A DNA stretch of 50,610 nt from an uncultured Caryophanales bacterium (GTDB lineage Bacteria; Bacillota_I; Bacilli_A; RF39; UBA660). A program made the position numbers and the translations under genes. The DNA lies in the NCBI GenBank assembly GCA_946623125.1, contig CAMOQR010000007.1, forward strand, positions 1 through 50,610. Reading direction: 5' to 3'. Of the stretch, positions 1,066-31,842 are shown piece after piece (position 1 is the first letter of the stretch; every line of letters begins with the position of its first letter). The notes beneath the pieces are model-generated. The model was not told the DNA's origin, did no database searches, and saw nothing but the letters and a program-made list of their open reading frames with translations.

Positions 1066-1077
1066 TGGAGGGATTTT

Positions 1078-2508: not shown

Positions 2509-2523
2509 TTTAGGTGGTGTTTT

Positions 2524-4038: not shown

Positions 4039-4048
4039 GGGTGTTATT

Positions 4049-5539
4049 ATGCGTAAAACTTTTAAATTTTTAATCTTATTTTTCCTTTTGTTATATAGTA
4101 TTTCTTTTTCCGTATCTGCAGAAGAGACTATTCCTAATGATGGGCGTGATGGAAAAATGACTTATGATTTTAGTGTATGTGGGACTCGTTATGGAGATTG
4201 TGATTTTACAACTTTAGATAAGGCTTTGTCTTATCTAGAACAACTTCATTTCCGTGATATGGAATCAAATAAAAAATTTTATGTGATTGTTTTATTTGAT
4301 GAACAAGAACAAGTTCTTACCAATCATACTTTAGATGTTCCTATCTTTATTGTTGGAGATTCTATTAATAAAGGGGGGGAGAATTTTGAGCCTTCCCGTG
4401 TTATTATTGATGGTAAAAATTCAACTATTCATTTTAATTATGTTTTAAGATTTATAGGTAGTTCTGTATCTATTTCTAATTTGAATTATGTTTATCATGC
4501 GAATATTCAATCTGAATATGAAGATTTGGCAATTGATGTTCGGGCTCAAGAGAGTGATTTTAATAATGTTCATATTACCAATACCAATGGAGAACATTTC
4601 TGTGAGACTATGTTTTCACAACCACCTTTCTATGGTATATCTTTTGGTCCTTTAGGTCCTTTAGGTCCTATTGGGTCTTCTCGTAGTTATGTTTCTGAAT
4701 ATAATTTTTTAAATTCTTCTATTTCAGGATTTGACCTTGGTATTGTATATTATTCTGGCTATAATGATCGCGTTACGGATTCTGGTATGGATACGGCTTA
4801 TCGTTATTCCATTCCTGATGTTGGGCTTGCATCTGATGGTGTTCCAATGTTTAACGATAAAATAAGTGCAATGATTAACATTGATCAATCAGATTTATAT
4901 GATAATTTGCTTTCTTTTTATTTCATTTCTTCAAATTCATATATGACGATTTCTAATTCAAAACTTACTTCTTTTTTAGCACTTGGATCTACTGTTAAAT
5001 TTTTAGAAGGAAATTCCTTTGGGGATTCTAAATTAATGAATGTTAGTTTGCCTGATTTATCTCAAATTGCAGATGCTGATGCTGAACGTCAAAAATTTGT
5101 TAATTATTTCTGTCAGAATGTGAAGGATAAAAAGAAAGCAATTATTTTGAAATATAATGATACGGAAAAATATCCTACTGTTATTGAGATTAATTTGGAA
5201 AAGACAGAACATGTAAATGATACGGGGACTAAAATATCTGTTTTAGATCGCTTTATTGATACGACAAGTACTGATATTTCTCTTTTTGAATATAAAGTTA
5301 GTGATGATAGTGTTGCGAAAATGGAGAATGGAAATGTTGTTTTACTTAAAAATCAAGATGTTGATGTTGTCGCAAGAAATCGTAGTACAAATGAAGTTTA
5401 TACTCTTCACTTAAGAATGAATCGTTCTCTTTTTCAAAATCCAGTAACGGGTACATTTATTGTACTTATCATATTTGGAATTTTATTTGTTATTAGTTTG
5501 TTTTTTATACAGACTATTCATAAAAAATCTCATAAATAG
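4049..5539 (+). CDS. Secreted beta-helix/Big-like surface protein (paralog 4), NPVTG C-terminal anchor
   Basis: Same architecture as the preceding ORF; C-terminal ~200 aa nearly identical to paralog 3. Confidence 0.87.
   Translation: MRKTFKFLILFFLLLYSISFSVSAEETIPNDGRDGKMTYDFSVCGTRYGDCDFTTLDKALSYLEQLHFRDMESNKKFYVIVLFDEQEQVLTNHTLDVPIFIVGDSINKGGENFEPSRVIIDGKNSTIHFNYVLRFIGSSVSISNLNYVYHANIQSEYEDLAIDVRAQESDFNNVHITNTNGEHFCETMFSQPPFYGISFGPLGPLGPIGSSRSYVSEYNFLNSSISGFDLGIVYYSGYNDRVTDSGMDTAYRYSIPDVGLASDGVPMFNDKISAMINIDQSDLYDNLLSFYFISSNSYMTISNSKLTSFLALGSTVKFLEGNSFGDSKLMNVSLPDLSQIADADAERQKFVNYFCQNVKDKKKAIILKYNDTEKYPTVIEINLEKTEHVNDTGTKISVLDRFIDTTSTDISLFEYKVSDDSVAKMENGNVVLLKNQDVDVVARNRSTNEVYTLHLRMNRSLFQNPVTGTFIVLIIFGILFVISLFFIQTIHKKSHK
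5072..5442 (+). repeat. Direct repeat copy B, identical by eye to 3565-3935
   Basis: See copy A. Confidence 0.85.
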
Positions 5540-6703: not shown

Positions 6704-8390
6704 AACTTACCATATTGATAAATCCATTTAATGATATGTCATCTAAGACTGGATATCTTGGTATTAAATAATTATTATTTGATCTTCTTGCTTTTACGTT
6801 TCCTCCTATAAAGGAAATTCTAAATCCTAAATCTTTTACTGCTTGAAGAGATTCATTATCATAACTATAGAATGGGAAACAGAAAGATGTTTTATCTCTA
6901 ATTACATCAAGAGATTGTTGTAGGTCTGCTTTTACTTCATCATAATTGGAACAAGCAACTTTTCCTCGTCCATCGCTGCAGCTTGCTTCATAGTGTAAGT
7001 TATAAGTATGTGATTGAATATCTAAGTATGGTGATTGATAATTTGATATATCCCACCATCCTGCAATTAAGAATAGGGTAGCATGCATTTTGTATTCTTC
7101 TAGTAATGGAATTAAAATATTTCCATTGTGTGCTCCAGTACCTTTTGCTCCATCATCAATTGTTAATAATACTGATTTATCTGGTATTTCAATGATACCA
7201 TCTTTCCAATCTGCAAATTCTTGAATGGTTAAGGTTTTATAACCATTATCTTGTAACCATTGTAATTGTTCTTTAAATTTTGCTTTTTCTAAACAAATTG
7301 ATTCATTACATTCTTCTCCAATACTAGAATCAAAGAAGAAATGATAATTTAATACGGCAATGGATTGATTTCCACTGTTTTCTCTACCATTATCAGGAAC
7401 TTCTTCTCCTTTAGCCATTCTTGAATAATTGTCTATAATTGTATAGTTTTTAGCAAGATATGCATTAATACTTTCTTTTTGATCTGCTCTTGTTGCTGGT
7501 TTATTCGTATTTTGAATTTTAATTCCATCATTTTCTGTAATACTTGATAAATCTACTTGCATTTCATTTTTAATTTGTTCAGTTGCTTCATTTTGACTAT
7601 CACTTAGGAGTAATACCGCATTTTCTTTTACATTTTGGTAATTGTTATAATACTTTATAAAATCATCTTTGGTAATGAAATAGAATCCATCATTTTTTAA
7701 TCTTTGAATATGGGCTTTTACGCTTGCTGCTTTCAGACAATTGTCTTCTCCGCAATCTGCTTCAATTCTTTCATAGTGAATGATACTTATATGATTTGCT
7801 ATTCCTTCTATCTTGTCTTTTAATTCTTTTTCTTTGATATTTTTTTGTTTTTTAATAGATAATAATTGATTTTGAAATCTTACATAATAGTTCTTATCAT
7901 CCATAGACTCTATTTTTGTTTTTATTCCATTATTTAATGTAATGATATCTTTTCCTTCCTCTTTTAATGTTACTTTATTCTTTGTTTGTATTTCTTTATT
8001 TAATGGTAGAAGGTATGTTTCTTCTTTCTTTTGATCTGTTGTTTTATTCTTTTTTATATCTTTATAACTAATATAATAGTCTGTTCCTTCTATGTTTAAA
8101 TATTTATTTTTAATGGTAATTTTTTTTATTTTTTCTAGTTGTAGAGGAATATTTTTTGTAATTGTTCCTATTTTTTTACCATTTTTATTATATAGAGAAG
8201 TATTTTTTGTTGTGATTACATATTCATTATATATTTTTTTTAATTGTTTTAATGTGTTTTTTTGTAATTGATTATATCCTATTAATGATAGGGTAGTTAT
8301 TCCTATTATTCCAATGATTAATATTAGAAACCACTTTTTTTTCATTTTTATTTTTTTCTTTTTCTTTTCTTTTTTCATATTCACACTCAC
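6702..8390 (-). CDS. Polysaccharide deacetylase family protein (NodB-like) with degenerate N-terminal copy; membrane-anchored
   Basis: N-terminal TM; C-terminal SVLLTIDDGAKGTGAHNGNILIPLLEEYKMHATLFLIAGWWD...IQSHTYNLH...FCFPFYSYDNESLQAVKDLGFR. Preceded by a divergent copy of the same N-terminal segment. Confidence 0.85.
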   Translation of the reverse strand: MSVNMKKEKKKKKIKMKKKWFLILIIGIIGITTLSLIGYNQLQKNTLKQLKKIYNEYVITTKNTSLYNKNGKKIGTITKNIPLQLEKIKKITIKNKYLNIEGTDYYISYKDIKKNKTTDQKKEETYLLPLNKEIQTKNKVTLKEEGKDIITLNNGIKTKIESMDDKNYYVRFQNQLLSIKKQKNIKEKELKDKIEGIANHISIIHYERIEADCGEDNCLKAASVKAHIQRLKNDGFYFITKDDFIKYYNNYQNVKENAVLLLSDSQNEATEQIKNEMQVDLSSITENDGIKIQNTNKPATRADQKESINAYLAKNYTIIDNYSRMAKGEEVPDNGRENSGNQSIAVLNYHFFFDSSIGEECNESICLEKAKFKEQLQWLQDNGYKTLTIQEFADWKDGIIEIPDKSVLLTIDDGAKGTGAHNGNILIPLLEEYKMHATLFLIAGWWDISNYQSPYLDIQSHTYNLHYEASCSDGRGKVACSNYDEVKADLQQSLDVIRDKTSFCFPFYSYDNESLQAVKDLGFRISFIGGNVKARRSNNNYLIPRYPVLDDISLNGFINMVS

Positions 8391-8525
8391 CTTATTCCTT
8401 TGTCATTTCTATTATAATATTTGTTATTTATTTCTTCAATAAAAAATGTGTAAATTCTTATTTTCATAGTTTTATTTTTTTTTAGAATAGGTTATAATAG
8501 TATATATAATAGGAGTGTGGTATCC

Positions 8526-11500
8526 TTGAAAAAGAAAATTCCTTTTATTTTTCTATTTTTATGTGTTATTTGTTTATTATTTGGTAGTATTTTTAAGTCT
8601 TTTTCAAGTCCTTTAAAAAGGGCTTTAAAAGATAGTTCTTATTCTTATTTACCTAGTGAGGCTATTGAATATATTGAGAAGGTTTATTATGAGACTGGTA
8701 ATCTTATTTTAACGGAGAAGAATAAGGTTGAGAATACTCCTTATTTAAATCCTGCTTATGTTGATTATCTTGTTATGGATTCTTCTAAAAAAGAGCAAAT
8801 GGAAGAAGTACCGCTTCCTTTAACGATTGATTATGTTAGTACTGGTGAGAGTGCTGGAGATCTTCCTTCTACTTATGATTTAAGAAATGTTGATGGTAAG
8901 AATTATATTACGCCTTTAAAAAATCAAGGTAATTTAGATATTTGTTGGGCTTTTTCTGCTTTAGAACAGGCTGAGAGTTATTTGATGGTTCAAAATCAAC
9001 AAAGTTATTCTTCCTCATCTTATGTTTTTTCAACAAGACAATTAGATTATGCTTTAAGTAATAATGGTATTCGTAATTATACCAATGATTATGCACCTCC
9101 AAAAAGAGAGGTTGGAAAAGGTGGGAACTTTTTAGGTGCTACTTTGGCTCTTGCTAATGGTATTTCAATGGTTTCTGATGATGTTATGCCTTTTGATTTG
9201 GATGTTTCCCAAAAAGAATTACAAGATGTTCTAAATTATGATAATTCTTTATTTGAATTAAATTCTTCTATTGTATTTAGAAGAGCAACTTATCCTTATG
9301 GATCTAGTGAAGCAACAGAGTATTTGAATAAAATCAAATCTTATATTATGCAATATGGTGGTGCATATGTAAGTAGTCAAGGTCCTAATTATTCTTGTGC
9401 TTCTAGAAATTCTAATGGTACTTATTTTGTTAGAGAAGATGATAATTGTACACAAGATGCAGGTCATGCTATGCAAATCATTGGATGGGATGATAATTAC
9501 TCTTATTCTTATTGTAAAGCACAATGTACAGATAGTAGTGGAAATACTATTGCATGTCATAGTTCTAATACTAGTAGTTGTAGCAGTAGTAATTTAGTAT
9601 CTGGTCGTGGTGCTTGGCTTGTACGTAATTCTTGGGGAGAAGGTACTTATGCTTATATTTATTTAACATATGATTCTTATCTTGCGGCTAATTCCTCTTT
9701 CTATTTTTCAACTGATTTAACTCCAATGAGTGAGAGAGTTTGGGATAATAATTATCATACTGCTGTTGATCCTTCTAGTTTCCATATTCATTATTCGAAA
9801 CTTACGGAGTATACAAAACCTATTGATACTGTAGAAAAAGTTGAGAAAGTTAAGTTTTTCTCTTATGGTCAAGATGGTACTTTCCGTGTTTCTATTTATA
9901 CGGATAGTCAATCTTATGAATATGTTGATACGATTCAAGTAGATTATATGGGAATTGCTACTTTTGATTTAAGTGATTATGATATTATTTTGACAGATCC
10001 AACTTTTAAAGTTTATGTTGAATCTACTAATTCTGTTGCCTTTATTGGAGATTCTATTTCTGTTTATACTTCTAATTATGATTCTGTTCCTTCTATGAAA
10101 TATCCATCGACTACTTCATTAAGTTCATTTTATCGGGATTATTCTACTACAGGTTATGAATTTGATTTATATTCTATTACCAAAAATATTCCTTCTAATG
10201 AAGAGATTTTATATGAACTATATGATGAAGAAGGAAATGATGTTTCTTCTCATTTAACGTATGATTATAATAAGATTGCTAGTAATAATATGAATTCTAT
10301 TATTACTGTAGATGGTACTTTACCAAAAGGAATTTATACGTTACGTGCTGTTCATGGGGATGATTATTTCTTATCTTATCTTATTTTAGGTGTTAGTTAT
10401 ACATTAAGTGGAGAAGGAACAACTGCTAATCCTTATTTGATTCATAATGAGAGTGAATTAAGGTTAATGAAGTTATATTTAAATTCTCATTTTGAACTTG
10501 AGAGTGATATTGTTCTTACTAAGAAATGGGTTCCTATTGGAACTTATTATGAACCATTTACGGGATCTATTAATGGAAATCATCATATAATTTCTAATTT
10601 AAATATTGAGGGTATTTTTTCTGATAGTGCATTTTTAGGATACGTTAAAGGATTAAAAGATGGTACTACTTCTTTTCAAAATATTCGTTTTGATAATTCT
10701 TTTGTTCGTGGTAATGGAAATTCTGCTGTTTTTATTGGTACATTAACTGGAGAAGAAGGGTATGATTGGAATCAACCTTATACTTCTATTAGTTTGGATA
10801 ATATTTCTATTATTGGAGGTTCTGTTTATTCTTATTATGGAAATGCAGGAAGTTTAGTGGCATCTATTGTTTCTACAAATCCTTTATATCATGGAACTCA
10901 TCGATATAATATCAATCGAATCTTTACTTCAGCAACTGTTGGTGGTAGTTCATCATCTGGTATGATTGGTTCTATTGCTGGAGCAGTTGATAGTACTTAT
11001 CGTACTTCTCTTTCTATGAAGAATATTGAAAATATTGGTTCTATTGATTTAACACCATTACTTGATTCTTATACTTGTACGATTAATAGACATTCTTCTG
11101 TTATTGGAAGTCTTTCTAATTCTGTAAATGCTGTTATGCATTATTATATCCTTTCTCCATTATTTAGAGGATTTACTTATTCTGGTAATGGTATTGTTGG
11201 TGAAGTTGGAACTGGAGCAACTACTAATATTAGTATTGGTTATAATACTTTGGATTCTACTACTACAGTTCTTGATTTAAAGAATTCCTCTAATTATTCT
11301 TCTTGGCCAAGTTTTTCTTCTAATTGGAAGATGGAAAATATAGATTCTGTTGGTAGAATTCCTCTTCTTATGAAAGGAAGTATTATTTATAATAGTTTAG
11401 GGGATGTTACAATTGGAAAAGGAGAAGAAGTTTTATTATCTAGTTTGATGGAGACAGATTCCCTTATACATTTTTCTTATAATTCTATTAGTGATGATGA

Positions 11501-12356
11501 GGTTGTATCAGTTGAACCTGTTGTTGATTCTATTAGCGGTCGTGGATATGATCTTAAAATTAAAGGTTTAAAGGGTGGAACTAGCACAATTCATGTTTAT
11601 AGTAATTATGATGGATATGAAAAAGATCTTGTTGTTCAAGTTTCTTCTGCCATTACTGGTTTTGAAAGTGATGTAGATGAAGTTCAAATTGGTGTTGGTG
11701 ATACTTATTTATTTCAACCAACGATTTTACCTAGTGATACAACTGATGATACTACTATTACATGGACAAGTAGTGATTCTTCTATTGCAACAGTTGATAC
11801 TACTGGTTTAATTCAAGGAGTATCTCTTGGTACGGCAACAATTACTGGAACTTTATCTAATGGAATGAGCGTTTCTTTAACAGTTACAATTATTCAACAT
11901 AAATCTATTACTTCTGCTGTTCCAAGTCGAAATCATGTTTTATTAAAACCAAATGAAAATATTAATTTGAATTTCTTCTTTGCACCTGTTGATGCAACAG
12001 AAAATAAAAACTTTACTTGGGTAAGTGAAGATTCTAATGTTGCGACTATTGAAAATAATACTGTTTCTGCTCATGGTGTTGGTTCTACTACTATAGTTGG
12101 AACTTTACCGGATGGATTAAGTGTTACTATTCAAGTAGATGTTGGGGAAGAGACTACTTTGAAGCATGGAGATTTTGATTCAAGTGGGCAAGTTGATATT
12201 CAAGATGTTATTGTTGCCTTACGTAAGGTATTTAAATATTGTCCAGTTGATGATGTTGATTTAGAAGTAGGAGATTTAAATTCTAGTAATTCTATTGGAG
12301 TAGATGATGTTATTATTCTTTTGAGGTATGTATTTAAATATATTTCTGAAATATAA
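8526..12356 (+). CDS. Papain-like (C1) cysteine protease with beta-rich/GLUG-like region, two Big2 domains and C-terminal dockerin-like module
   Basis: Catalytic segments NQGNLDICWAFSALEQAESYL, DAGHAMQIIGWDD, WLVRNSWGEGTYAY; Big2 motifs TWTSSDSSIATVDTTGLIQGVSLGTATITGTL and TWVSEDSNVATIENNTVSAHGVGSTTIVGTL; C-term GDFDSSGQVDIQDVIVALRKVF...GDLNSSNSIGVDDVIILLRYVF. The ORF track starts at GTG 8517, which sits on the AGGAG; TTG 8526 is better spaced. Confidence 0.9.
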   Translation: MKKKIPFIFLFLCVICLLFGSIFKSFSSPLKRALKDSSYSYLPSEAIEYIEKVYYETGNLILTEKNKVENTPYLNPAYVDYLVMDSSKKEQMEEVPLPLTIDYVSTGESAGDLPSTYDLRNVDGKNYITPLKNQGNLDICWAFSALEQAESYLMVQNQQSYSSSSYVFSTRQLDYALSNNGIRNYTNDYAPPKREVGKGGNFLGATLALANGISMVSDDVMPFDLDVSQKELQDVLNYDNSLFELNSSIVFRRATYPYGSSEATEYLNKIKSYIMQYGGAYVSSQGPNYSCASRNSNGTYFVREDDNCTQDAGHAMQIIGWDDNYSYSYCKAQCTDSSGNTIACHSSNTSSCSSSNLVSGRGAWLVRNSWGEGTYAYIYLTYDSYLAANSSFYFSTDLTPMSERVWDNNYHTAVDPSSFHIHYSKLTEYTKPIDTVEKVEKVKFFSYGQDGTFRVSIYTDSQSYEYVDTIQVDYMGIATFDLSDYDIILTDPTFKVYVESTNSVAFIGDSISVYTSNYDSVPSMKYPSTTSLSSFYRDYSTTGYEFDLYSITKNIPSNEEILYELYDEEGNDVSSHLTYDYNKIASNNMNSIITVDGTLPKGIYTLRAVHGDDYFLSYLILGVSYTLSGEGTTANPYLIHNESELRLMKLYLNSHFELESDIVLTKKWVPIGTYYEPFTGSINGNHHIISNLNIEGIFSDSAFLGYVKGLKDGTTSFQNIRFDNSFVRGNGNSAVFIGTLTGEEGYDWNQPYTSISLDNISIIGGSVYSYYGNAGSLVASIVSTNPLYHGTHRYNINRIFTSATVGGSSSSGMIGSIAGAVDSTYRTSLSMKNIENIGSIDLTPLLDSYTCTINRHSSVIGSLSNSVNAVMHYYILSPLFRGFTYSGNGIVGEVGTGATTNISIGYNTLDSTTTVLDLKNSSNYSSWPSFSSNWKMENIDSVGRIPLLMKGSIIYNSLGDVTIGKGEEVLLSSLMETDSLIHFSYNSISDDEVVSVEPVVDSISGRGYDLKIKGLKGGTSTIHVYSNYDGYEKDLVVQVSSAITGFESDVDEVQIGVGDTYLFQPTILPSDTTDDTTITWTSSDSSIATVDTTGLIQGVSLGTATITGTLSNGMSVSLTVTIIQHKSITSAVPSRNHVLLKPNENINLNFFFAPVDATENKNFTWVSEDSNVATIENNTVSAHGVGSTTIVGTLPDGLSVTIQVDVGEETTLKHGDFDSSGQVDIQDVIVALRKVFKYCPVDDVDLEVGDLNSSNSIGVDDVIILLRYVFKYISEI

Positions 12357-15301: not shown

Positions 15302-17611
15302 ATGAAAAAAATTGTTCGTTTTCTTTTCTTTTCTTTTTTATGTTTTACTAGTTGTTTTTCTGTTTTTGCAAAAAATGATGATGTTGTAATTAAAAAAATA
15401 GAATTATTAGAAAAGACTGATTCTACAATTATATTAGAAGATGCAACATATTCTGGATTAAAGGTTCATTTTGGATTAAAATTTACAAAAGTTAATGATT
15501 ATGCAAAGTATCGATTAACGATTCAAAATAATGGAGAGAGAGAATATGAATTTACAAATGATAGTATTGATTTTGAAAATAGTGATTTTATCGATTATAC
15601 TTCTCAAATTGAAAATAATAATCAAAATAAAGTATTACCTGGAGAGATAGTAACTACTATTGTTATGGTTTCTTATTCTAATCCGGTTGATAATTCTTTA
15701 TTTCAAGAAAATGTTTACAAGGAAGATAATCTTCTAAGATATTCTATGGTTCCTCATTTTGATATTTTATCTAATCCTCTTACTTCTCGTCATTCTTTTA
15801 TTTTTCTTATCGTTTTATTTCTTTTTGTTTTTTTATTTCTTCTAAATAAAAAGATTAATTTTATTCGAAAAATTCATTTTATCTTCTTTCTATTTCTTTT
15901 GATTCTATTACCTTTTATGATATCTTCTGTTTTTGCAAGTAATACGATTATCATTGTAATTGAGTCTCATATAGAAATTGAAAAGAATGATAAATATTCT
16001 ATTCTAAAACCAGGTCCTGATATTAATTCTCTTATTCATGGGGAAGTTGATCGTTTTGAGGATTATGGTAGTGGATGGGAAGATACCTATAACCATCTAA
16101 TTTCTTTTAAAAGAGCAACTACAATGAGTGATGAGGAAAGAGCAAATGCTCAAATTATTTCAATTGAAGAGGATGATTCTTCTTTTGTTCCTGTATATAT
16201 ATGGTTTGTTGAGGGAGAAGAAACCTTTTATGAACAAGAAATATGTGCAGGATATGTATGTTATGATTATCTTTTTGATGATGATGCTGCTGAAAGAGTA
16301 CCAATTACCATGGATGTTGTTAGAGCATATTGGTGGAGTGATGCAGATACAATCTATTATAATCCCGATTCTTCTAATTTCTTTTCAGGTTTAAATTATT
16401 TACATGATTATAAAGATATCAATAATTTTGATTCTAGTAAAGTAGTAAATATGAATGCTATGTTTTATGGGTTAGGTTTGCATTATCCTGTTGAATCCTT
16501 TGAACTAGGGTCTAATTTTAATACTTCTAATGTTACTGATATGGGCAGTATGTTTTCTGGTATTTCTACTAAATCACTTGATGTTAGTAAATTAGATACA
16601 AGTAATGTAACCAATATGAGAACAATGTTTTCGGAAGTAAGTCATATAGAATCGCTTGATGTTAGTCATTTTGATACAAGTAAAGTTACGGATATGGAAG
16701 GTATGTTTGGATTAATGTTTTCTCTAAAATCATTGGATGTAAGTCATTTTGATACATCAAAGGTTACAAATATGGAGGGAATGTTTAGAGATTGTGAAAG
16801 TATTAAAAGTCTAGATATCTCTAATTTTAATACCAGTAATGTTACAGAAATGAGCAATCTATTTCATAATATGAGTTCACTAACTCAATTAAATTTAGGA
16901 AATATTAATACTAGTAAAGTTAAGAACTTTTCTTCTATGTTTTCCCAATTATCCAGTTTAAAACAAATTGATTTAAGTCATATAGATACAAGTAATGCAG
17001 TGAGTATGAATTGTACTTTTTGTGGAAGTGGTTTCACTCATCTTGATGTAAGTTCTTTTGATACGAGTAAGGTTTCTACTTTTGAGGGTGCTTTTGCTAG
17101 ATTAAAAGATTTAGAAAGTATTACTTTTGGTGATTTTAATACGAGTAGTGCAACATATATGAGAGATATGTTTAATGGGTCTTCTAAATTAAAAAATTTG
17201 GATTTAAGTTTTTTTGATACAAGTCATGTTACAAATATGGAAGGTATGTTTGCTTCTATGGATTCTTTAGAGACGGTTAATCTTTCTAGTTTTAATACTG
17301 TTAATGTTACGGATATGTCTTCTATGTTTAAAAATTCTAAAAAGATCAAGACTTTGGATTTAAGCAATTTTAAATTAAATTCGTCTTGTGATATGAATTC
17401 TATGTTTAAAAATACCGGAAGTGACTCTTCTAACTTTAATCTAATATTAGGAAGTAATTTTAATATGAAATCTCTTACGCGTTATTCTTTATATCAATCC
17501 TTTTGTAATACTGGTAAAAATAGTACTATATGGAATCTAACAAATTTAAGTGCTTATAATGATTTAGATTCTACACAAAAGAATAGTGCAACTACCTGTT
17601 CGTCTTATTAA
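15302..17611 (+). CDS. BspA-like surface protein with DUF285 repeats, preceded by an extracellular domain and internal membrane hairpin
   Basis: Signal peptide; repeated FNTSNVTDMGSMFSG, LDTSNVTNMRTMFSE, FDTSKVTDMEGMFG, FDTSHVTNMEGMFAS motifs; hydrophobic pair at aa ~165-212. Confidence 0.9.
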   Translation: MKKIVRFLFFSFLCFTSCFSVFAKNDDVVIKKIELLEKTDSTIILEDATYSGLKVHFGLKFTKVNDYAKYRLTIQNNGEREYEFTNDSIDFENSDFIDYTSQIENNNQNKVLPGEIVTTIVMVSYSNPVDNSLFQENVYKEDNLLRYSMVPHFDILSNPLTSRHSFIFLIVLFLFVFLFLLNKKINFIRKIHFIFFLFLLILLPFMISSVFASNTIIIVIESHIEIEKNDKYSILKPGPDINSLIHGEVDRFEDYGSGWEDTYNHLISFKRATTMSDEERANAQIISIEEDDSSFVPVYIWFVEGEETFYEQEICAGYVCYDYLFDDDAAERVPITMDVVRAYWWSDADTIYYNPDSSNFFSGLNYLHDYKDINNFDSSKVVNMNAMFYGLGLHYPVESFELGSNFNTSNVTDMGSMFSGISTKSLDVSKLDTSNVTNMRTMFSEVSHIESLDVSHFDTSKVTDMEGMFGLMFSLKSLDVSHFDTSKVTNMEGMFRDCESIKSLDISNFNTSNVTEMSNLFHNMSSLTQLNLGNINTSKVKNFSSMFSQLSSLKQIDLSHIDTSNAVSMNCTFCGSGFTHLDVSSFDTSKVSTFEGAFARLKDLESITFGDFNTSSATYMRDMFNGSSKLKNLDLSFFDTSHVTNMEGMFASMDSLETVNLSSFNTVNVTDMSSMFKNSKKIKTLDLSNFKLNSSCDMNSMFKNTGSDSSNFNLILGSNFNMKSLTRYSLYQSFCNTGKNSTIWNLTNLSAYNDLDSTQKNSATTCSSY

Positions 17612-22502: not shown

Positions 22503-22712
22503 ATGATGAAGTTAAATATTCAATTGTTTGCTGTTCCTTTCCGTAAAGTATCTAAGACTAGAAAAAGATTAAGAAGAAGTCATAATGCTATGGAAATTCC
22601 AGGTATGACGAAATGTTCTAATTGTGGGGAAATGATTAAGCCTCATAGAGTTTGTCCTAATTGTGGTACTTATAAAGGAAAAGTAGAAGTAAAGAAAAAT
22701 GAAGCAGAATAA
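22503..22712 (+). CDS. rpmF: 50S ribosomal protein L32 with N-terminal extension
   Basis: [54 protein letters not shown]: canonical L32 with Cys4 zinc ribbon, preceded by MMKLNIQLF. Confidence 0.96.
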
Positions 22713-22728: not shown

Positions 22729-22810
22729 GTCTTTTAACTGGCTTTTTTTATGATGTTAAGGTATAATGATTTATAGTAGGTTATATAAAAAAAGATATGG
22801 AGTTGAGAGT

Positions 22811-25800
22811 ATGTTTCATAGGACAAATTCTAAAAAAGGATTTACTTTAATTGAGTTAATGGCAGTTATTATTATTGTAGGTATTTTATCTATTTTATCG
22901 ATTGGTGCTATTACTCGTTTTATTGCGAAATCTAGACAACAAAAAGTTGTTCAAAATAAGAAAAATATTGTGATGGCTGCTGAGATGTATCTTCAATCTA
23001 ATCGTGACTTAATGCCTAAAATGATAGGAGATCATGCATCTGTTAAAATGTTAGATTTACGTAATGCTAATTATTTAAAAGAAGATGTATCTAATGAAAA
23101 AGGGGAAGACTGTATGAAAGAGTCTTTCGTTTATGTCTTTAAGTTATCTGATTCAGATTATTCTTATACTCCACATTTATATTGTGGGGATGAAAAGGCT
23201 CCAGCAGAATATGTTCCTGCATCTCCTTATCTTGTTGATCATTCCGTAACAAATGACGGAGAAACAAAAAAAGTTAAAGTTTTATTTTCTGGTTCTAATG
23301 ATGTTAAAAAAGCAAATTTTTCATTTGTTTTAAAAGGTGATCAGTCTGGGGAACTTGGAATTTATAGTTACAGTTATTCTATTTTGGCAAAAATTGGAGG
23401 AGAAAGTACTTTTACAGAGGTTTATAACTCTGGTACGTTAGAAGCAAATTTAGTTCCTTCTGTTGAATTTCAGTCTCGTCCAATTTCATCTTACTTGGAT
23501 TTAAGTGGTACGACTAATATTGAAGTACGTGTTACAGCACTTAATGAAGAAGGTGGATTCTTATCTTATGAAACTCAAGGTTTGGCTGCATTTGGAGGAT
23601 CTAGCTATGTAGATACGGTTAATCCATTATGTCCAGCATTAGATGATTATGCAGGTCGTATTGGTGAGCCAAGAGATTTTGATGACTGGATTAATAAGAG
23701 CGATATTGGAACAAATCGTTATCCAAGATTAATTACTCTACGTTGTGATGATGGAGATGGTTCTGGATGTAAACGTGATACATTCTCTCAATCATGGCCT
23801 GATACATCAGAAGAATATAAGTTTGGTGTTATGTTTGGCAAAATTGTAATGGAAGATAATGCGGTAACTGATGAGAATGGTAATCGAAAAGATGCAAATT
23901 CTATTGTTTGTCCTATTAATGTATTTGTAGATGTTAAGTCACCATCTATTGAAATTACTCCAAGAAACCCTAAAAACAATTCTTTAGCAGGAGATGGTCC
24001 TTTATTTAGTACAAATGAGGGTAAACTTGTTTTAGAGGATGGCCCTGAACCTGTTGCGGATCCTTTAGAGAAAACAATCACTGCCAAGGATTATAAGAAG
24101 ATATTCTTAGGATTTGATATTGATCCTGAAGATGCTCAAAAATATGGTATTGCAGAAGATGATTTGGATTCTGCTGGATGGATGAATAAAGAAAATTATC
24201 CTGATGGAATTGAATATGAAGTTATGATTTCTGATAATATTTACTTAACTGGTTATACATGGGAAGTTAATGCTCCATATCAGGGAGTGGAAACTGCTAA
24301 TTATGAGACATTATATTCTGATCAGTATGAAGGAAGCTCTTGGTGGAGAAATGAACATGATGAGACAAAAGTAGATGAAGATGCAGTGCTTGAGTCTAAG
24401 ACTCCGCTTGATCCGGTTACCAATCAATATGTGTTTAAAATAGCCTTTAAAGAAGAGGGTGCAAGATACGGAGTACTTACTGTATACGATAGAGCAGGAA
24501 ATGCTTCTAAAGTCTACATTTATGCTAATCTAGATCGTACACCACCTCCACTTGATTATCCTGCTCAAGATGATTTAGAAACTAAATTTTATAAAGTTCC
24601 AAATCCTCATGTAAATGCTGGTGTTAGCCCTTCTGCTATTCAAAAAAGAATGAGTATTAGAGGAGATGGTGCTTGCGAGAACGATAATCCTGATAAATAT
24701 ACTCCATTAGTTTCTAATAATGTTTTTTCTCTTGATGCACAAAAACCACAATATAATATGAATGAATTACTTGTTCCACCCCAAAATGTTACACAGGAAA
24801 TGTATGATAATGCTTGTGCTGATTATATTCCTGCTGATCAGGCTGATTCTGCTGATCCTTGGTTTCAAGGATATAATGTTTGTTGTGAACCTGATTTTAA
24901 AGAGGATGCAATTACTTCTTGCTATTTCTTTAATGTAAATGGAAGTGGAATGCCTTTAAAACCTTGTGAAAGTAATCTTCCATTAAATGGAAAAGGAACT
25001 GTTTATGGAATAAAAAAAGGACAAGCCTTAGAAAATTTAACTAAAGGAACTGATAAAAGTACTTTATTTAAAAATATGGATGGTTCTTATCAAGATCATG
25101 AGGTTCAAGATGAATATAATACTCCTACTACTTCTCAGAGTACAGAAGAGGATTTACTAAATGCACGTCGTGTAGGATGCTATAAGATTGGTTCACTTGA
25201 AGGAAACAATGGAATAGAGCCAAAAGACCCTAATGATCCTAATTTGGAAGAATATCAAGCAGGTACTTGGTCAAACGAATCATTAATATGTGGGCCACTT
25301 GATAATATGGCAAAAGATAATTTTGTCACAAGTGATGAAGGTAATGAGGTTGAAATTGATAATGAAATATCTGGTTGGTTTGCAGTAGAGGTTAACGTTT
25401 ATAAACAGGATGGACAGCAAATTATACCAAAATATAGTTATTATAGTAATGATTCAAACAGGCCTACAGAGTTTAGTACTATTCCAACTTATAATTATAC
25501 AGATCCTGAGCATTTTGATTCTCATCTAATCTATGTTAATGATCGTTCTTCTTGGATAACTTTAAAAGAGCAGGGTACTCATAAATTAGTTTGGACTACA
25601 TGTGATAAGGCTGGAAACTGTTATGATGATTCTGATGAGGATTTAATTGAGGAAAAGGGTAATAATACTGTTATTGTAAAAATTGATACTGTTAATCCAT
25701 TATGCCAAAATTCAATTAAATATACAAAGTATGTTAACAGAAAAGGCGCAGTAAAAATTGGAACAACATATAATAGTGAAAGTGGTATTGGACCAAACTC

Positions 25801-28555
25801 TAATGGTTGGTTGTATGATAAGCAAGTTGCGACGGTTTTCCATTCTTGTGTTGATGTCGGTGATGCTAATATAACTGAATATGATGATGGATGGGATAAT
25901 TCTGATACTTATGGAAGTGGATGTGCTGGAGGAATGGATTCTTCAACGAATGATTATTTTGATTATGCTTTTGATGTGTTTACGTCGGCTGCTGGTACAG
26001 ATGGAGTTGGTAAATTTGGATATGTTGAAGATATTGCTGGTAATAAGGGTGAATGTAAGAATGGTGTCAATGTCTGGAAAGACTCTGTTTCTCCACAGTG
26101 TTATTTGAATGAAATTTGGACTGGTGAAAATTTTCTAAAAGAAAATGGAGGTCATAATGTTCCTAGTAAACATTTCTGGGCGGTTGAGGGAATGAATTAT
26201 CGTGCTCAGTGGGGTGGTTGTAGAGATAATGTATATGCAAAACTTTCTGTATATAATCAACAGCCTGCCTATAGTACTTGTTATAATCAGTCTGATTTAA
26301 CAGATAAAGTTGTTAGAAAATCTAGTCTTTATGAAGGAACTTTTGGTTATTATGATTATGATAAATTTATGGATGATAATATGTTACGTGAAATAGATGA
26401 TGAATATGAGATTGATATGGGAGATGGTTATTATTATGACTTTCAACCTTCTATTACTGTTCCTAGACCTGATATTCAATATGTTGATATTTCAGAACCA
26501 TTTTATGGTCAAGTTGGTTTGATGGGAATTCGTGCTCAACTTCGACATCGTTTACATCGTAATATGGATGATAGCGGTGCCGTTAGTTATTCTTTTAAGT
26601 GGGAAGAAAAAAGAGCACCTTATAATGGGTTTACAGTTGATGAGGCTGGAAATATTTCTTATGATGCCTGTGAGTCTATAGAATCTGGGTTAGATACGAA
26701 AACTCCTACTTGTAATTCTCAAGTTGAAATTCAAAATAGAGCATATGGAGATGAGGAGTATATAAATAGCCGTGGTGATTCTTGGGCTGGTTCTACTGGT
26801 GCTGATGGTACTCCTGAATATTCTCTTGTATTTAGAGGATGTATTGATGCACATGAGGATAATTATTTATATTATAATGTTGATAAATATTTCTATAGTG
26901 AAGATGCTAGTAGTGGTTGTGACAAAAAAGACCAGATAAATAAAATTTTTTGGATTTATGGAAATCCTGCTGTTGTTCCTGAAGGTGCTGAAGGACGTAT
27001 TACATATGGTGAATACTATGGTGAAGCATCATTTAATGGTCCATATGCAATGCCTCAAAGCAATGATTATGTTATAGATATGGCTGGATATAAAGGCTAT
27101 GGTAGTTGTGGAAGAACTCATGTTGCTATTGATTATACTGCTCCAACATGTAAGGCTTCTTATATTTATAAAGATGGCAAAAATTTTTCTGCAGAGTATA
27201 AAGGTAATCTTACTAATCAAATAATATATTCTAAAGGTGAATGTGATAGTGATAATGGTGCTATTCAAAGTGGATGTGATGCTGCTGGCGATTATAAATA
27301 TTATGCTGATGATCTTTTTGCAAATCCATTTTTTGAATATAAAGGTAAAAATAGTGAAAAAACTTCTAAAATTATGTGTACAGATGTCGCTGGAAATTAT
27401 GCATTTGTTACTGATACTCAATTGATTAAGCAAGATACTGTTCATCCTACTGTTAAATGTGAATATTCTGGTTATTATAAGAAAGATGGTTCTTCAGAGG
27501 TTAAAGTTAAGATTAATAGTATTGCGGATCCTCCTGGTAATCCAGATAATTTTGCAAGTGGTATTGATTATAGTAAATCTTACATTAGTTTTAGTGGTGG
27601 CTTAAGTAAACAAACTTTAAAATCTGGACAGATGGAATATATTATTAAACCAACTTGTGCATCTAGTGAATCTAGTATTAAGGCTTATATAACAGTATTT
27701 GATAAGGCTGATAATTCTATAAAGAATGTTGCTTGTACTGGTACTCCGATTGTCGTTCCTGGCTGCTGTACTAAAATGACAAATACCCCTGATAAATGTA
27801 GTGATTATAAGACAAGTTCTTGTACTAAAAAGTGTGGTGGTGGTACTCAGTATGAATATCGTGATTGTACGAATACTTCTTACTATAATGGAGCAACTTG
27901 TAAATTTAAGGATGTAGATGATGGTTCTGTTCGTGCATGCAATACACAGGCTTGTTGTAGTCAAACCACAGATTCATGTAATAAATGTAAAAATACTTAT
28001 GAAGATGATAATCCTTGTTCTTACGGATTCCAAAAATGTAATGTAGTATCTAAATATGATTCATCTATTATTTGTGGGTCTCGATTTACTCGTATTTGTA
28101 AAGTTGATCAAGCAGCTTGTGAAAAAGGAATGGATCCAATACCTGGACAACCTTCTTCTAATACTTGTGATGTTTATCTTTATGGTAATACTGCTTCAGA
28201 TGTTGTTGAAGTTCGCCCAACTGATTTTAATTGTGATTTTAAGAATGTTCAAAGTGGTTCTGTTGATAATCCGGTTGAAGGATGTTTTGCAAGAAGGACA
28301 TCTGGTGGAGATGTTTTAAAGGTAACTGTAACTCCTTTCGCTACGCCAGGAGAAAACCTTTATAAAAATTTGTGTTTATTTAATGTTACTTGGATGAGTA
28401 ATCGTTATAATTTCGATGATTCTATATATCGTCATTATTCTTTCGGTGTTGTTCAATGTAAAAGAGAAGATGGTACTTTCCATTATTGCTTAAATTCTTG
28501 TGATAATGTTGATTCTTGTGTTCCAAAATTATATGAGAGTAATCCAACAGAATAG
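22811..28555 (+). CDS. Giant type IV prepilin-like surface protein with cysteine-rich Ig-like modules and a TSP1-like domain
   Basis: MFHRTNSKKG|FTLIELMAVIIIVGILSILSIGAITRFIAKSR class III signal; repeated D-x-x-x-P-x-C starts (DTVNPLC, DTVNPLC, DSVSPQC, DTKTPTC, DYTAPTC); C-terminal SSCTKKCGGGTQYEYRDC. ATG 22811 preferred over 22766. Confidence 0.88.
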   Translation: MFHRTNSKKGFTLIELMAVIIIVGILSILSIGAITRFIAKSRQQKVVQNKKNIVMAAEMYLQSNRDLMPKMIGDHASVKMLDLRNANYLKEDVSNEKGEDCMKESFVYVFKLSDSDYSYTPHLYCGDEKAPAEYVPASPYLVDHSVTNDGETKKVKVLFSGSNDVKKANFSFVLKGDQSGELGIYSYSYSILAKIGGESTFTEVYNSGTLEANLVPSVEFQSRPISSYLDLSGTTNIEVRVTALNEEGGFLSYETQGLAAFGGSSYVDTVNPLCPALDDYAGRIGEPRDFDDWINKSDIGTNRYPRLITLRCDDGDGSGCKRDTFSQSWPDTSEEYKFGVMFGKIVMEDNAVTDENGNRKDANSIVCPINVFVDVKSPSIEITPRNPKNNSLAGDGPLFSTNEGKLVLEDGPEPVADPLEKTITAKDYKKIFLGFDIDPEDAQKYGIAEDDLDSAGWMNKENYPDGIEYEVMISDNIYLTGYTWEVNAPYQGVETANYETLYSDQYEGSSWWRNEHDETKVDEDAVLESKTPLDPVTNQYVFKIAFKEEGARYGVLTVYDRAGNASKVYIYANLDRTPPPLDYPAQDDLETKFYKVPNPHVNAGVSPSAIQKRMSIRGDGACENDNPDKYTPLVSNNVFSLDAQKPQYNMNELLVPPQNVTQEMYDNACADYIPADQADSADPWFQGYNVCCEPDFKEDAITSCYFFNVNGSGMPLKPCESNLPLNGKGTVYGIKKGQALENLTKGTDKSTLFKNMDGSYQDHEVQDEYNTPTTSQSTEEDLLNARRVGCYKIGSLEGNNGIEPKDPNDPNLEEYQAGTWSNESLICGPLDNMAKDNFVTSDEGNEVEIDNEISGWFAVEVNVYKQDGQQIIPKYSYYSNDSNRPTEFSTIPTYNYTDPEHFDSHLIYVNDRSSWITLKEQGTHKLVWTTCDKAGNCYDDSDEDLIEEKGNNTVIVKIDTVNPLCQNSIKYTKYVNRKGAVKIGTTYNSESGIGPNSNGWLYDKQVATVFHSCVDVGDANITEYDDGWDNSDTYGSGCAGGMDSSTNDYFDYAFDVFTSAAGTDGVGKFGYVEDIAGNKGECKNGVNVWKDSVSPQCYLNEIWTGENFLKENGGHNVPSKHFWAVEGMNYRAQWGGCRDNVYAKLSVYNQQPAYSTCYNQSDLTDKVVRKSSLYEGTFGYYDYDKFMDDNMLREIDDEYEIDMGDGYYYDFQPSITVPRPDIQYVDISEPFYGQVGLMGIRAQLRHRLHRNMDDSGAVSYSFKWEEKRAPYNGFTVDEAGNISYDACESIESGLDTKTPTCNSQVEIQNRAYGDEEYINSRGDSWAGSTGADGTPEYSLVFRGCIDAHEDNYLYYNVDKYFYSEDASSGCDKKDQINKIFWIYGNPAVVPEGAEGRITYGEYYGEASFNGPYAMPQSNDYVIDMAGYKGYGSCGRTHVAIDYTAPTCKASYIYKDGKNFSAEYKGNLTNQIIYSKGECDSDNGAIQSGCDAAGDYKYYADDLFANPFFEYKGKNSEKTSKIMCTDVAGNYAFVTDTQLIKQDTVHPTVKCEYSGYYKKDGSSEVKVKINSIADPPGNPDNFASGIDYSKSYISFSGGLSKQTLKSGQMEYIIKPTCASSESSIKAYITVFDKADNSIKNVACTGTPIVVPGCCTKMTNTPDKCSDYKTSSCTKKCGGGTQYEYRDCTNTSYYNGATCKFKDVDDGSVRACNTQACCSQTTDSCNKCKNTYEDDNPCSYGFQKCNVVSKYDSSIICGSRFTRICKVDQAACEKGMDPIPGQPSSNTCDVYLYGNTASDVVEVRPTDFNCDFKNVQSGSVDNPVEGCFARRTSGGDVLKVTVTPFATPGENLYKNLCLFNVTWMSNRYNFDDSIYRHYSFGVVQCKREDGTFHYCLNSCDNVDSCVPKLYESNPTE
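27815..27957 (+). other. Thrombospondin type-1-like domain coding segment within the giant protein
   Basis: SSCTKKCGGGTQYEYRDCTNTSYYNGATCKFKDVDDGSVRACNTQACC matches CSxTCGGGxxxRxRxC...GxxC...xxCNxxxC spacing. Confidence 0.7.
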
Positions 28556-28569
28556 AAAGGTAGGAGATT

Positions 28570-29493
28570 ATGATGGATAAACAGAAAAAAATAATTGGTA
28601 ATATTCGTAAATGTTTAATTGTTCTTATCATAATTCTCCTTATCTTTACGTTTGGTTATATAATTTTTTCTGGAGTTTTAATTAATTATGATAATCAAGA
28701 ATACATTTATTCAGATTCTTCTAGAAGTGTTTCTTTTTATCCTTGTTTAAAAAAAGGTAGTGTATGTAGTCGAGATGATATATATCATTCTATAAAAGTT
28801 TCGTTTTTAGTAAATAATTCTCAAACTTATGAATTTTATTTATTATCAAATGATTCTGATACAGCAACCTTTATTATGTCTGAGAATTTAGTAGATGATG
28901 TGAATTGGCATAATGAAAGAATTAATATGAAAGGACCTACTAATGTTTTTAGAGTTCTTTCTGATTCTACAAGTACTTGGTCATCTATTCCTGTTATTTC
29001 TTCTTATGAATATTCTGATTATGGACAAGTAATCTATGAGAATCATTGTAGTGATGAAAATTATATCAATCATGAAGATTATGATTGTAGTCGAGGAGAC
29101 TTTCCATCAAGAGGATATAAAGGTTTAAAAATAGAGAATGGTGCTCTTTTTATTCAGGCTAATCTTTATAGTAGTGAAGGTGTTTCTATGATGAACGGAA
29201 CTCTTCTTAATGATCCACTTCTTCGGGCAAGAATTCCTACTTATGAAGAAATATATGACTTAGAAGAAGATGGTGTTCTTCCTGATTGGTTGATGGATCA
29301 CTTGTATGAGAAGGAAGGTTTTTGGACCATGAGTTCTTCAACCCTACCTTCTACAGGTTATATACAAGGAGTATTTGCCGTGGAAAGAGTGAATCGTAAA
29401 GCAACTTTAATGGATGTTTATTCTATGAATAATGCGAATGATTATTATACTCATACAGGAATTAGACCTGTTATTACAATTGAAAAAGTATAA
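28570..29493 (+). CDS. Single-TM extracellular protein, C-terminal region reminiscent of DUF6273-type domains
   Basis: N-terminal TM; PTYEEIYDLEEDGVLPDWL...GFWTMSSSTLPSTGYIQGVFAVERVNRKATLMDVYSMNNANDYYTHTGIRPVITIEKV. Confidence 0.75.
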   Translation: MMDKQKKIIGNIRKCLIVLIIILLIFTFGYIIFSGVLINYDNQEYIYSDSSRSVSFYPCLKKGSVCSRDDIYHSIKVSFLVNNSQTYEFYLLSNDSDTATFIMSENLVDDVNWHNERINMKGPTNVFRVLSDSTSTWSSIPVISSYEYSDYGQVIYENHCSDENYINHEDYDCSRGDFPSRGYKGLKIENGALFIQANLYSSEGVSMMNGTLLNDPLLRARIPTYEEIYDLEEDGVLPDWLMDHLYEKEGFWTMSSSTLPSTGYIQGVFAVERVNRKATLMDVYSMNNANDYYTHTGIRPVITIEKV

Positions 29494-29528
29494 ATTAAAA
29501 GGTTATAACTATGTTATAGCCTTTTAAT
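29494..29528. terminator. Long hairpin, probable terminator
   Basis: ATTAAAAGGTTATAAC TAT GTTATAGCCTTTTAAT; weak downstream T-run. Confidence 0.5.
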
Positions 29529-29553: not shown

Positions 29554-31842
29554 ATGACAACAAAAATAGTAGTATGTTCTAATGAATATAAAAATAAACA
29601 ATTATTAGATTATTCTCTAAATCCATCTTTTAGTTCCATTCGTTATATGTCAAAAGATGAATTTTTTAATCATTACTATTATGAGTATGATGAAAGAAGT
29701 TATGTTTATTTAATGAAGAAGTATCATTTTCATTTAGATGTATGTAAAGTATATTTAAACAATATGGTATTTATTGATTTAGAAAAAAAATATAAAAGTA
29801 AAAAACTTTTATTTTTACAATCATTAAAAAAAGAATTAATAGATAATCATTTATTTACTTATCACTCTTATTTCAAAGATTCTATTCAAGAGATAGAAGT
29901 TCATTCTATTTATGATTTAGATTACTATCAAGAAAAAGTACTTGATTATTCTTTTCAAATTCCTGATTTTTCTTTTTCTCCCACTGTGTATGAATTTTCT
30001 AGTATGGAGGATGAGGTTAATGCAGTATGTCAAAAGATTTGTTCTTTAATAAAAGAAGGAGTATCACTATCTCATATTTTTTTAGTTAATGTAAGAGAAG
30101 ATTATTATTATACGTTATGGAAGATGTTTTCTTATTATCATATTCCTATTTCTATTCCTTTTCAAAATTCTATTTATTCCACGAAGATTGTACAAGATTA
30201 TTTAAATGACGGAACTCTTACTTTAGATAATGATATGATTACTACTAAATTAGTATCTGTTATTAATAAGTTATCTATTTTAGAAGAAGATGAATATAAA
30301 AAAGTAATTTTAATAGATCAATTAAAACATACCATGATTCCTTCTAAAAAATATGATAATGCCGTTGAAATAAAAGATTTAAAAAGTAGTACTTTTCAAG
30401 AAGATGATTATGTCTTTTTATTAGGATTTAATCTAGATTATGCTCCTCAAATGAAGAAAGATATTGAATATATTTCTGATAAAGAAAAGGAAGAAGTAGA
30501 TTTATATACAACAACTTATATGAATCAAAGAGAAAGAAAATTAATTCCTTATTTAATTAGTCAAATTAAAAATATATTTATTAGTTATCCATTATCTAGT
30601 CCATTTCAAAAATATTATCCATCTATTCTTATAGGAGATTATTCATTAAACGTTATTAAAAATTATTCTTTTACGAATCAATATTCTAATTCTTATAACC
30701 AAATTCGTTATGAAGAAATGTTAGATCAATTCTATATATATGGAGAAAAACATCCTGATTTAGAATTATTTCATTCCAATTATCCAAATCTTTATGATAC
30801 ATATTCTAATAAATTTAATGGGATTGATAAAGATTTTTATTTAGAACAATTACCAGTACCTTTAACATTATCTTATTCCTCTCTTAATAGTTATAATGAA
30901 TGTAAGTTTAAATACTATATTAAAAATGTATTAAAAATAGATCCTTATGAAGATACCTTTTCTGCTTTTATTGGATCTTTATATCATAAAATATTATCTT
31001 TATATCAAAATAATAATTTTAATTTAGAAGAGGAGTGGAATCGATATTTAGAAAGAAGAGAATTAACAATTAAAGATATGACTTTACTTGTTAGAATAAA
31101 GAAAGATTTAGTAGAATTATTAGATGAATTAAAAAAACAAGAATTAATATGTGGATATAATGATGGATTATTTGAAAAAGAAGTAAGAATTAAAATTAAG
31201 AATGATATTTCTGTAGAGTTTGTTGGATATATTGATAAGATTTTATATTATAAGAAAATAGATGATACTTATTTTTCTATTATAGATTATAAGAGTGGGT
31301 TTATTGATACTCATATAGAACCTATGAAATATGGATTACATATGCAATTACCAATTTATTTATATTTAATTCATTATTCTAAATTATTTGATAATCCTAT
31401 TTTTACGGGAATCTATTATCAAAATATATTATTTTCTTATCCTACTTGGACTCCTACTTTAGAAGAGGATAATAAAAAGAAATATTATTTACAAGGATAT
31501 AGTACAGATAAGATAGAATTACTATCTAGATTTGATTCTACTTATGAAGATAGTGAACTTATTAAAAGTATGAAATATAATGAAGAAAAGGGATTTGGTT
31601 CTTATACTAAGATTATGGATGATAATCTTTTATATCAGATGCTTACCTTTACTAAAAAACATATAGAAGATAGGGTAGATGATATCTTAAATGGAGACTT
31701 TACAATTAATCCTAAAATAGTTGGAAAAGATAATGTATCTTGTGAATTTTGTCATTTTAAAGATTTATGTTATATGACAAATGAAGATATTATAAGACTT
31801 CCAAAAGTTGAGGATTTATCTTTTTTAGGAGGTGAGGAGTAA
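29554..31842 (+). CDS. addB: AddB-like PD-(D/E)XK nuclease/inactive helicase subunit
   Basis: Adjacent to addA; LPVPLTLSYSSLNSYNECKFKYYIKNVL, VEFVGYIDKILYY...FSIIDYKSG nuclease motif, C-terminal CEFCHFKDLC; Cys pattern fits the AddB Fe-S site. Confidence 0.8.
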   Translation: MTTKIVVCSNEYKNKQLLDYSLNPSFSSIRYMSKDEFFNHYYYEYDERSYVYLMKKYHFHLDVCKVYLNNMVFIDLEKKYKSKKLLFLQSLKKELIDNHLFTYHSYFKDSIQEIEVHSIYDLDYYQEKVLDYSFQIPDFSFSPTVYEFSSMEDEVNAVCQKICSLIKEGVSLSHIFLVNVREDYYYTLWKMFSYYHIPISIPFQNSIYSTKIVQDYLNDGTLTLDNDMITTKLVSVINKLSILEEDEYKKVILIDQLKHTMIPSKKYDNAVEIKDLKSSTFQEDDYVFLLGFNLDYAPQMKKDIEYISDKEKEEVDLYTTTYMNQRERKLIPYLISQIKNIFISYPLSSPFQKYYPSILIGDYSLNVIKNYSFTNQYSNSYNQIRYEEMLDQFYIYGEKHPDLELFHSNYPNLYDTYSNKFNGIDKDFYLEQLPVPLTLSYSSLNSYNECKFKYYIKNVLKIDPYEDTFSAFIGSLYHKILSLYQNNNFNLEEEWNRYLERRELTIKDMTLLVRIKKDLVELLDELKKQELICGYNDGLFEKEVRIKIKNDISVEFVGYIDKILYYKKIDDTYFSIIDYKSGFIDTHIEPMKYGLHMQLPIYLYLIHYSKLFDNPIFTGIYYQNILFSYPTWTPTLEEDNKKKYYLQGYSTDKIELLSRFDSTYEDSELIKSMKYNEEKGFGSYTKIMDDNLLYQMLTFTKKHIEDRVDDILNGDFTINPKIVGKDNVSCEFCHFKDLCYMTNEDIIRLPKVEDLSFLGGEE

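Follow-up and report, generated by a model that had tools for sequence, protein, structure and literature searches.

A giant modular prepilin with an Ig-like array and a thrombospondin type-1 repeat as a candidate filament adhesin of uncultured gut Bacilli

The window analysed here, a stretch of 50,610 nucleotides on contig C7 of a 1.14-Mb draft metagenome-assembled genome (MAG; 71% complete), contains a gene that we interpret, on the balance of the evidence, as encoding a modular minor pilin of giant size, an adhesin whose place is probably the tip of a Com-like type 4 filament. The gene (22811-28555, forward strand) is an uninterrupted frame of 1,914 aa, also open from position 22766, and its mature product would have a mass of ~212 kDa and a predicted pI of 4.55. 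The protein contains 60 cysteines (3.1%), well above most proteins of the window, the median for giant ectodomains being 2.5%. Modular pilins are a known kind of protein; as far as we have checked, what is new is the size, the presence of a thrombospondin type-1 (TSP1) module that in this lineage is apparently confined to prepilins, the membrane partner and the insertion hotspot. The locus comprises the following features:

22503..22712 (+): rpmF (ribosomal protein L32), left border of a conserved insertion site, from sequence and its position upstream of the relatives' prepilin genes
22762..22767 (+): TATAAT, which probably serves the prepilin operon as -10 element and overlaps the discarded ATG at 22766 (by eye; -35 weak)
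22799..22802 (+): GGAG, probable Shine-Dalgarno sequence, 8 nt 5' of the ATG at 22811 (sequence)
22811..28555 (+): giant modular prepilin, 1914 aa (frame analysis, Pfam, orthologue)
22811..22840 (+): class III leader MFHRTNSKKG, with predicted prepilin-peptidase cleavage between G10 and F11 (sequence, Pfam, NCBIfam)
22811..23215 (+): pilin module, with helix alpha1 (aa 13-63) containing E5, a beta part and conserved Cys101 and Cys125 (alignments, AlphaFold2, PDB profile matches to type IV pilins)
23216..24565 (+): conserved stalk, aa 136-585, with three beta-sandwich (Ig-like) domains common to the relatives' giants at rpmF-addB (alignments, AlphaFold2 pLDDT 75.6, Foldseek)
24566..27760 (+): variable region, aa 586-1650, containing additional D-x-T-x-P and DxAGN motifs of the kind typical for Ig-like repeats (sequence)
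27815..27955 (+): TSP1 repeat, aa 1669-1715 (PF00090 above cut-off, PDB profile match)
27959..28552 (+): predicted distal Cys-rich C-terminal head, AlphaFold2 pLDDT 40 (sequence)
28570..29493 (+): companion, a single-TM protein of 307 aa whose C-terminal domain family is also fused to prepilins (sequence, relatives)
29497..29525 (+): inverted repeat and T-rich stretch behind the companion, terminator-like (by eye)
29554..31842 (+): addB, bounding the insertion site on the right (PDDEXK_1, 1.3e-19; synteny)

Two start codons are available to the prepilin frame, and the class III signal is retained from both. The ATG at 22811 is the likelier, since it is preceded by the GGAG, whereas the ATG at 22766 lacks such a sequence and falls inside a perfect TATAAT, a hexamer that was spotted by eye only and that a consensus promoter scan did not report. 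The N-terminus reads MFHRTNSKKG up to the predicted cleavage point and FTLIELMAVIIIVGIL beyond it, an intact class III signal of the form G|FTLIE, and it is matched above cut-off both by N_methyl in Pfam (PF07963; 25.9 bits against a cut-off of 21.2, E 6.6e-6) and by IV_pilin_GFxxxE in NCBIfam (26.0 bits against 16.3, E 5.7e-6). The class III signal with E5 that the initial annotation had recognized is hence borne out, and the protein of ~1,900 aa that it had put at about ten times the size of a normal pilin corresponds to a real frame with a 2,125-aa orthologue. At the opposite end (...SCVPKLYESNPTE), the protein has neither a hydrophobic tail nor an LPxTG-type sorting signal, and a Pfam scan extended up to E 10 found no match to the PilC/PilY1 beta-propeller domain anywhere in it.

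The ectodomain is predicted to consist of tandem beta-sandwiches in an adhesin-type Ig-like array. Structure prediction, which the initial annotation had proposed for this part, returned for residues 1-600 an AlphaFold2 model (18 relatives; pLDDT 75.6) with a 51-residue helix (residues 13-63), short strands as far as residue ~125 and then approximately three beta-sandwich domains; the model of the distal residues 1440-1914 (pLDDT 40) was unusable. The best PDB matches to the model of residues 1-600 in Foldseek include the giant-adhesin repeats 5irb, 6xi3 and 2yn3, with TM-scores that are low, as expected of a flexible multi-domain chain, and pilins are absent among the top 50 matches because the Ig-like part dominates the model. 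The pilin module is instead recognized by profile, with 13 relatives yielding a match to PilE1 of Streptococcus sanguinis (8pfb, E 2.4e-11) that spans alpha1 only; between alpha1 and the modules, the pilin part is represented by the short predicted strands and the conserved cysteine pair. Residues 1-585 are common to the giants at rpmF-addB (E down to 1e-111), and the comparison of domain architecture across related genomes advocated in the initial annotation identified a shared proximal part, while the variable region can be aligned over its full length with a single relative, L064. VKOR, considered as a source of disulfides, was found in none of 58 family genomes, and the 60 cysteines then count against the preferred interpretation.

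The TSP1 repeat in the distal part of the protein is matched by PF00090 at 23.7 bits in the genome search (cut-off 21.6) and at 16.4 bits (E 0.011), under the cut-off, in an hmmscan of the whole protein. A profile built from four giant-prepilin TSP1 segments matches human thrombospondin-1 in the PDB (7yyk, E 3.5e-9) and, more weakly, properdin and ADAMTS13. A relationship between the TSP1 repeat and the stalk was considered and rejected, as an hhalign comparison of the TSP1 profile with the stalk shows no relation. In two partly overlapping samples of the lineage, PF00090 exceeded its cut-off in 8 of 145 and 21 of 385 genomes, and it did so in none of 14 control genomes. Each TSP1 ORF being counted once despite the overlap, and ORFs cut by contig ends being set aside, all 23 of the 23 with an intact 5' end encode prepilins (14/14, 7/7, the window gene and L057; one of the 7/7 bears G|YIMTE), and a non-prepilin carrier was not seen among the intact-5' ORFs of the order-wide sample. 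Because the TSP1 repeats of these relatives were found only on prepilins, the pattern suggests that animal-like adhesion modules are, in this lineage, borne by type IV pili. A search of open-access PMC papers yielded nothing on a link between thrombospondin and prepilins.

Relatives of the giant belong to an order of uncultured gut Bacilli with NCBI names such as Candidatus Onthousia, which we take to be GTDB RF39. To avoid circularity, they were gathered by residues 60-600 and their N-termini were read afterwards; all of the more than 20 giants collected in this way, after removal of duplicates, retain the residues G or A (-1), F (+1) and E5, whereas the residue at -1 is lost in 4 of 6 shortened, ~250-aa relatives at rpmF-addB. 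The ~250-aa prepilin-like genes at L070, L079, L082 and L118 keep E5 and have lost the -1 residue, so that their products are probably uncuttable. The contrast between giants and shortened relatives seems to indicate, as far as sequence comparison can tell, that selection maintains a processable and assemblable pilin wherever the ectodomain is present. These residues bear directly on the foremost alternative, a rather unlikely one in our estimate, according to which the pilin helix is a membrane anchor only, the protein, whether processed or left uncut, never enters a filament and the Ig-like array crosses the wall as a fixed surface adhesin. The length of the array, as judged from the number of domains, would alone be enough to clear a monoderm wall, the loss of G-1 among the shortened relatives indicates that uncut forms exist, and a similar Ig-like ectodomain is borne on a plain TM helix at L095. 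E5, however, is an assembly residue for which an anchor would have no need, and yet it is kept by every giant together with the residues at -1 and +1; moreover, the NPxT(G)-TM-basic tails on some surface proteins of the genome mean that another anchoring route seems available. Given the filament machinery in the genome, the retention of -1, +1 and E5 in the giants and the Ig-like array with its TSP1 repeat, a minor-pilin giant or tip adhesin is better supported than an anchoring helix. The initial annotation had offered both, and it is the former part of its interpretation that has gained ground, the surface anchor being less supported.

The initial annotation had also remarked, correctly, that no PilB, PilC or PilD homologue lies in the window, and had suggested searching the genome for them and for other prepilins. 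All three were found elsewhere in the genome, along with several further prepilins. A PilB-like ATPase is encoded on contig C18 (T2SSE, E 1e-118), with two prepilins divergent from the pilB-like gene, and on contig C15 a PilC-like platform protein adjoins a prepilin peptidase (Peptidase_A24, E 2.6e-15) in which a four-Cys region and a GGGD motif are visible directly in the sequence. Further prepilins of normal size (139-221 aa) reside on contigs C15, C8 and C41. With the peptidase present, pilin-type processing, against which its absence was to have argued, stands unrefuted. The PilB (L014:8078-10003) and PilC (L013:2647-4335) proteins feature, respectively, a long Pro/Asn-rich C-terminal tail and a ~160-aa low-complexity N-terminal extension. 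Across the family, PilB is present in 144 of 145 genomes, and the sole genome without it, G038, is also devoid of any N_methyl match and of any match to the giant prepilin. PilM was not found in the giant's own genome and gave weak matches only elsewhere, and PilT exceeded the TIGR01420 cut-off in none of 30 genomes, with matches that coincide with PilB and with the giant's own genome being 71% complete. Because PilT is not seen above cut-off in these 30 genomes, the type 4 filament machine has a Com-like appearance, with no retraction ATPase that can be recognised. The PilB and PilC proteins score best against the GspE and GspF models, yet under the cut-offs, and this would fit a type II secretion-like pseudopilus to which the giants contribute the ectodomain as a substrate-loading tip. 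We hold such an assignment to be very improbable: in a monoderm lineage an outer membrane is presumably not to be expected, the ectodomain is adhesin-like and no dedicated secreted substrate adjoins the gene.

Giant prepilins are a recurrent feature of the family. Searching it with the giant protein revealed prepilin frames as long as ~1,300 aa in numerous genera. Family-wide, prepilins in the range of 700-2,125 aa recur, and more than 40 giants are known from it. When named genomes were searched with the complete giant, no close relative emerged, and plasmid and phage collections yielded no match to it; 80 named loci were retrieved via the neighbouring MYG1 gene. The nearest of these, L064 (JAFRAK010000028.1), comes from a goat-duodenum MAG, 'Bacilli bacterium RGIG2316', with which the window groups in the MYG1 neighbour tree (98/88). 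Its prepilin, of 2,125 aa, is colinear with window residues 7-1890 at 34% identity and occupies the same rpmF-addB site, and the existence of this full-length orthologue indicates that the length of the giant does not reflect a chance open frame. That a small prepilin was joined to an unrelated surface protein by frame fusion, misassembly or a chance frame, as the draft state of the MAG and a frameshift that seems to split a similar gene at L091 might intimate, is refuted by the colinear orthologue, is also at odds with the number of giants in the family, and deserves practically no credence. A prepilin frame of 24,037 aa in G030 (C11, ~104000-176000) was rejected, since it consists of 72 kb of masked N. 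At the 43 loci where rpmF is visible, the rpmF-addB interval holds giants in 15 cases (16 with L095), short prepilins in six and degenerate prepilin-like genes in five, and is empty in eight; at the other loci, it holds other genes or is cut off. The MYG1 tree requires at least six changes for the character 'giant', and together with the contents of the interval this identifies rpmF-addB as a hotspot of gain, loss or resizing. At L095, a 515-aa protein (7391-8938) without a prepilin signal, in which a plain single TM bears an Ig-like ectodomain containing cysteines, stands directly before a giant prepilin of 1,120 aa.

The single-TM protein that the initial annotation had placed behind the giant is present and begins 14 nt past it, the terminator-like repeat closing the pair, and it is conserved along with the giant, the orthologue in L064 having 305 aa and 39% identity. 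Among giants that end a run of prepilin genes (n=38), 21 are followed within 150 bp by a protein of 90-330 aa with a single N-terminal TM, the corresponding figures being 56 of 963 for other genes (odds ratio 20, p 2.7e-15, a value that overstates independence given the relatedness of the genomes compared) and 2 of 26 for short prepilins. Roughly half of the giants lack a single-TM partner immediately downstream, which is counted against the preferred interpretation. The companions belong to several sequence families, and the pairing is therefore positional. The family of the window's companion lies beside giants in G141 (E 1e-50); in G131 (E 1e-28), it accompanies a prepilin of 576 aa at a different site in the genome, and in L170 and L171 its C-terminal domain is fused directly onto prepilins. 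The companion of the window has no family match in Pfam or NCBIfam and no PDB match by profile search; remoter relatives reach DUF6273 at their C-terminus (14.9-19.0 bits, below the cut-off of 23.5). DUF6273, a domain of variable receptor-binding proteins of phages, resembles C-type lectins in AlphaFold models (PMC10743442).

The window and related contigs also encode other surface proteins. Four tandem paralogues of ~480-500 aa (1-5539) end in NPVTG, a TM segment and a basic tail, in a look-alike of a sortase-type signal, and NPKT tails resembling these ends occur on contig C8 (L015). The gene at 8517-12356 encodes a papain-like cysteine protease (NQGNLDICWAFSA) that also has Ig-like repeats and, at its C-terminus, a pair resembling dockerin repeats (GDFDSSGQVDIQDV...GDLNSSNSIGVDDV), and a similar gene may be present at L069 (1048-4983). 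A surface protein in which numerous DTSKVTNMEGMF repeats occur (by eye, BspA/DUF285-like) is encoded at 15302-17611, and a further one of 966 aa (47329-50229) contains a near-exact internal duplication of ~240 aa, its repeats resembling cell-wall repeats of the choline-binding type.

Modular pilins have been catalogued by Raynaud et al. as more than 1,200 proteins in 264 architectures, with an extreme multi-domain case of 860 aa (PMC8179133). In S. sanguinis, PilB (vWA) and PilC (Ig-like and lectin) are modular minor pilins that have been modelled at the tip and that bind host ligands (PMC8179133, PMC9934059). Like them, the giant is found in a monoderm and has a class III signal and an E5 pilin module followed by non-pilus modules, including, as in PilC, Ig-like ones besides its putative binding module. 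Unlike them (50.5 and 52.8 kDa), it is about four times larger, at 212 kDa mature, and has a long Ig-like array, a TSP1 repeat and a single-TM partner that is not a pilin. By profile, the giant's alpha1 helix matches that of major pilins of the type IV class (PilE1 of S. sanguinis, geopilin, PilA), but these are chains of 60-210 aa without extra modules. The PilC/PilY1 tip adhesins resemble the giant in large size and in its presumed place at the pilus tip, although PilY1 is not a pilin and its beta-propeller has no counterpart among the giant's matches. The CxxxCGGG...ACNTQAC pattern of the giant's TSP1 repeat recalls thrombospondin-1, properdin and TRAP of Apicomplexa, in contrast to which the repeat is here bacterial and borne by a prepilin. 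DUF6273 and C-type-lectin-like domains are related to the system through the weak C-terminal matches of some companion relatives, the companion itself having no significant match. In its tandem beta-sandwich stalk, as judged by Foldseek, the giant is comparable to giant Ig-repeat adhesins, such as the 1.5-MDa ice-binding adhesin and SiiE. Those adhesins are exported by type I secretion, whereas the giant would be exported by the prepilin route.

In the filament adhesin interpretation, the prepilin peptidase of the genome would cut after G10 and N-methylate F1, and the pilin module, with alpha1 and E5, would enter a Com-like filament by way of its PilB-PilC machine. The outer part, of ~1,780 residues, would be placed at or near the filament tip, since it is too bulky for the shaft; no precedent for filament assembly of a 1.9-kaa subunit was found in the literature searched. 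The Ig-like array would then act as a stalk, and ligands would be bound at the end formed by the TSP1 repeat and the Cys-rich head. The co-transcribed single-TM protein may be a stabilising partner or a second receptor, and it probably belongs to the giant's complex, as its domain family is fused onto prepilins in other species. Cleavage, assembly, tip position, ligand binding and the role of the partner are all proposed here from sequence. A wider reading, which we put forward tentatively and as possible rather than probable, is that the prepilins are the only TSP1 carriers of the order and that the giants (to 2.1 kaa), together with a lectin-like partner in the membrane, constitute a host-binding system of two components that diversifies rapidly and is displayed on a type 4 filament, with genes exchanged or expanded at fixed sites such as rpmF-addB.

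If correct, the filament adhesin interpretation would extend the size range known for type IV pilins several-fold, and would mean that gut bacteria as yet uncultured may make long adhesins that depend on neither sortase nor type I export. The association of TSP1 with prepilins can be phrased as a testable claim, namely that type 4 filaments display animal-like adhesion modules in this lineage, and the cassette of prepilin and partner would offer a handle on the assembly of a monoderm tip complex.
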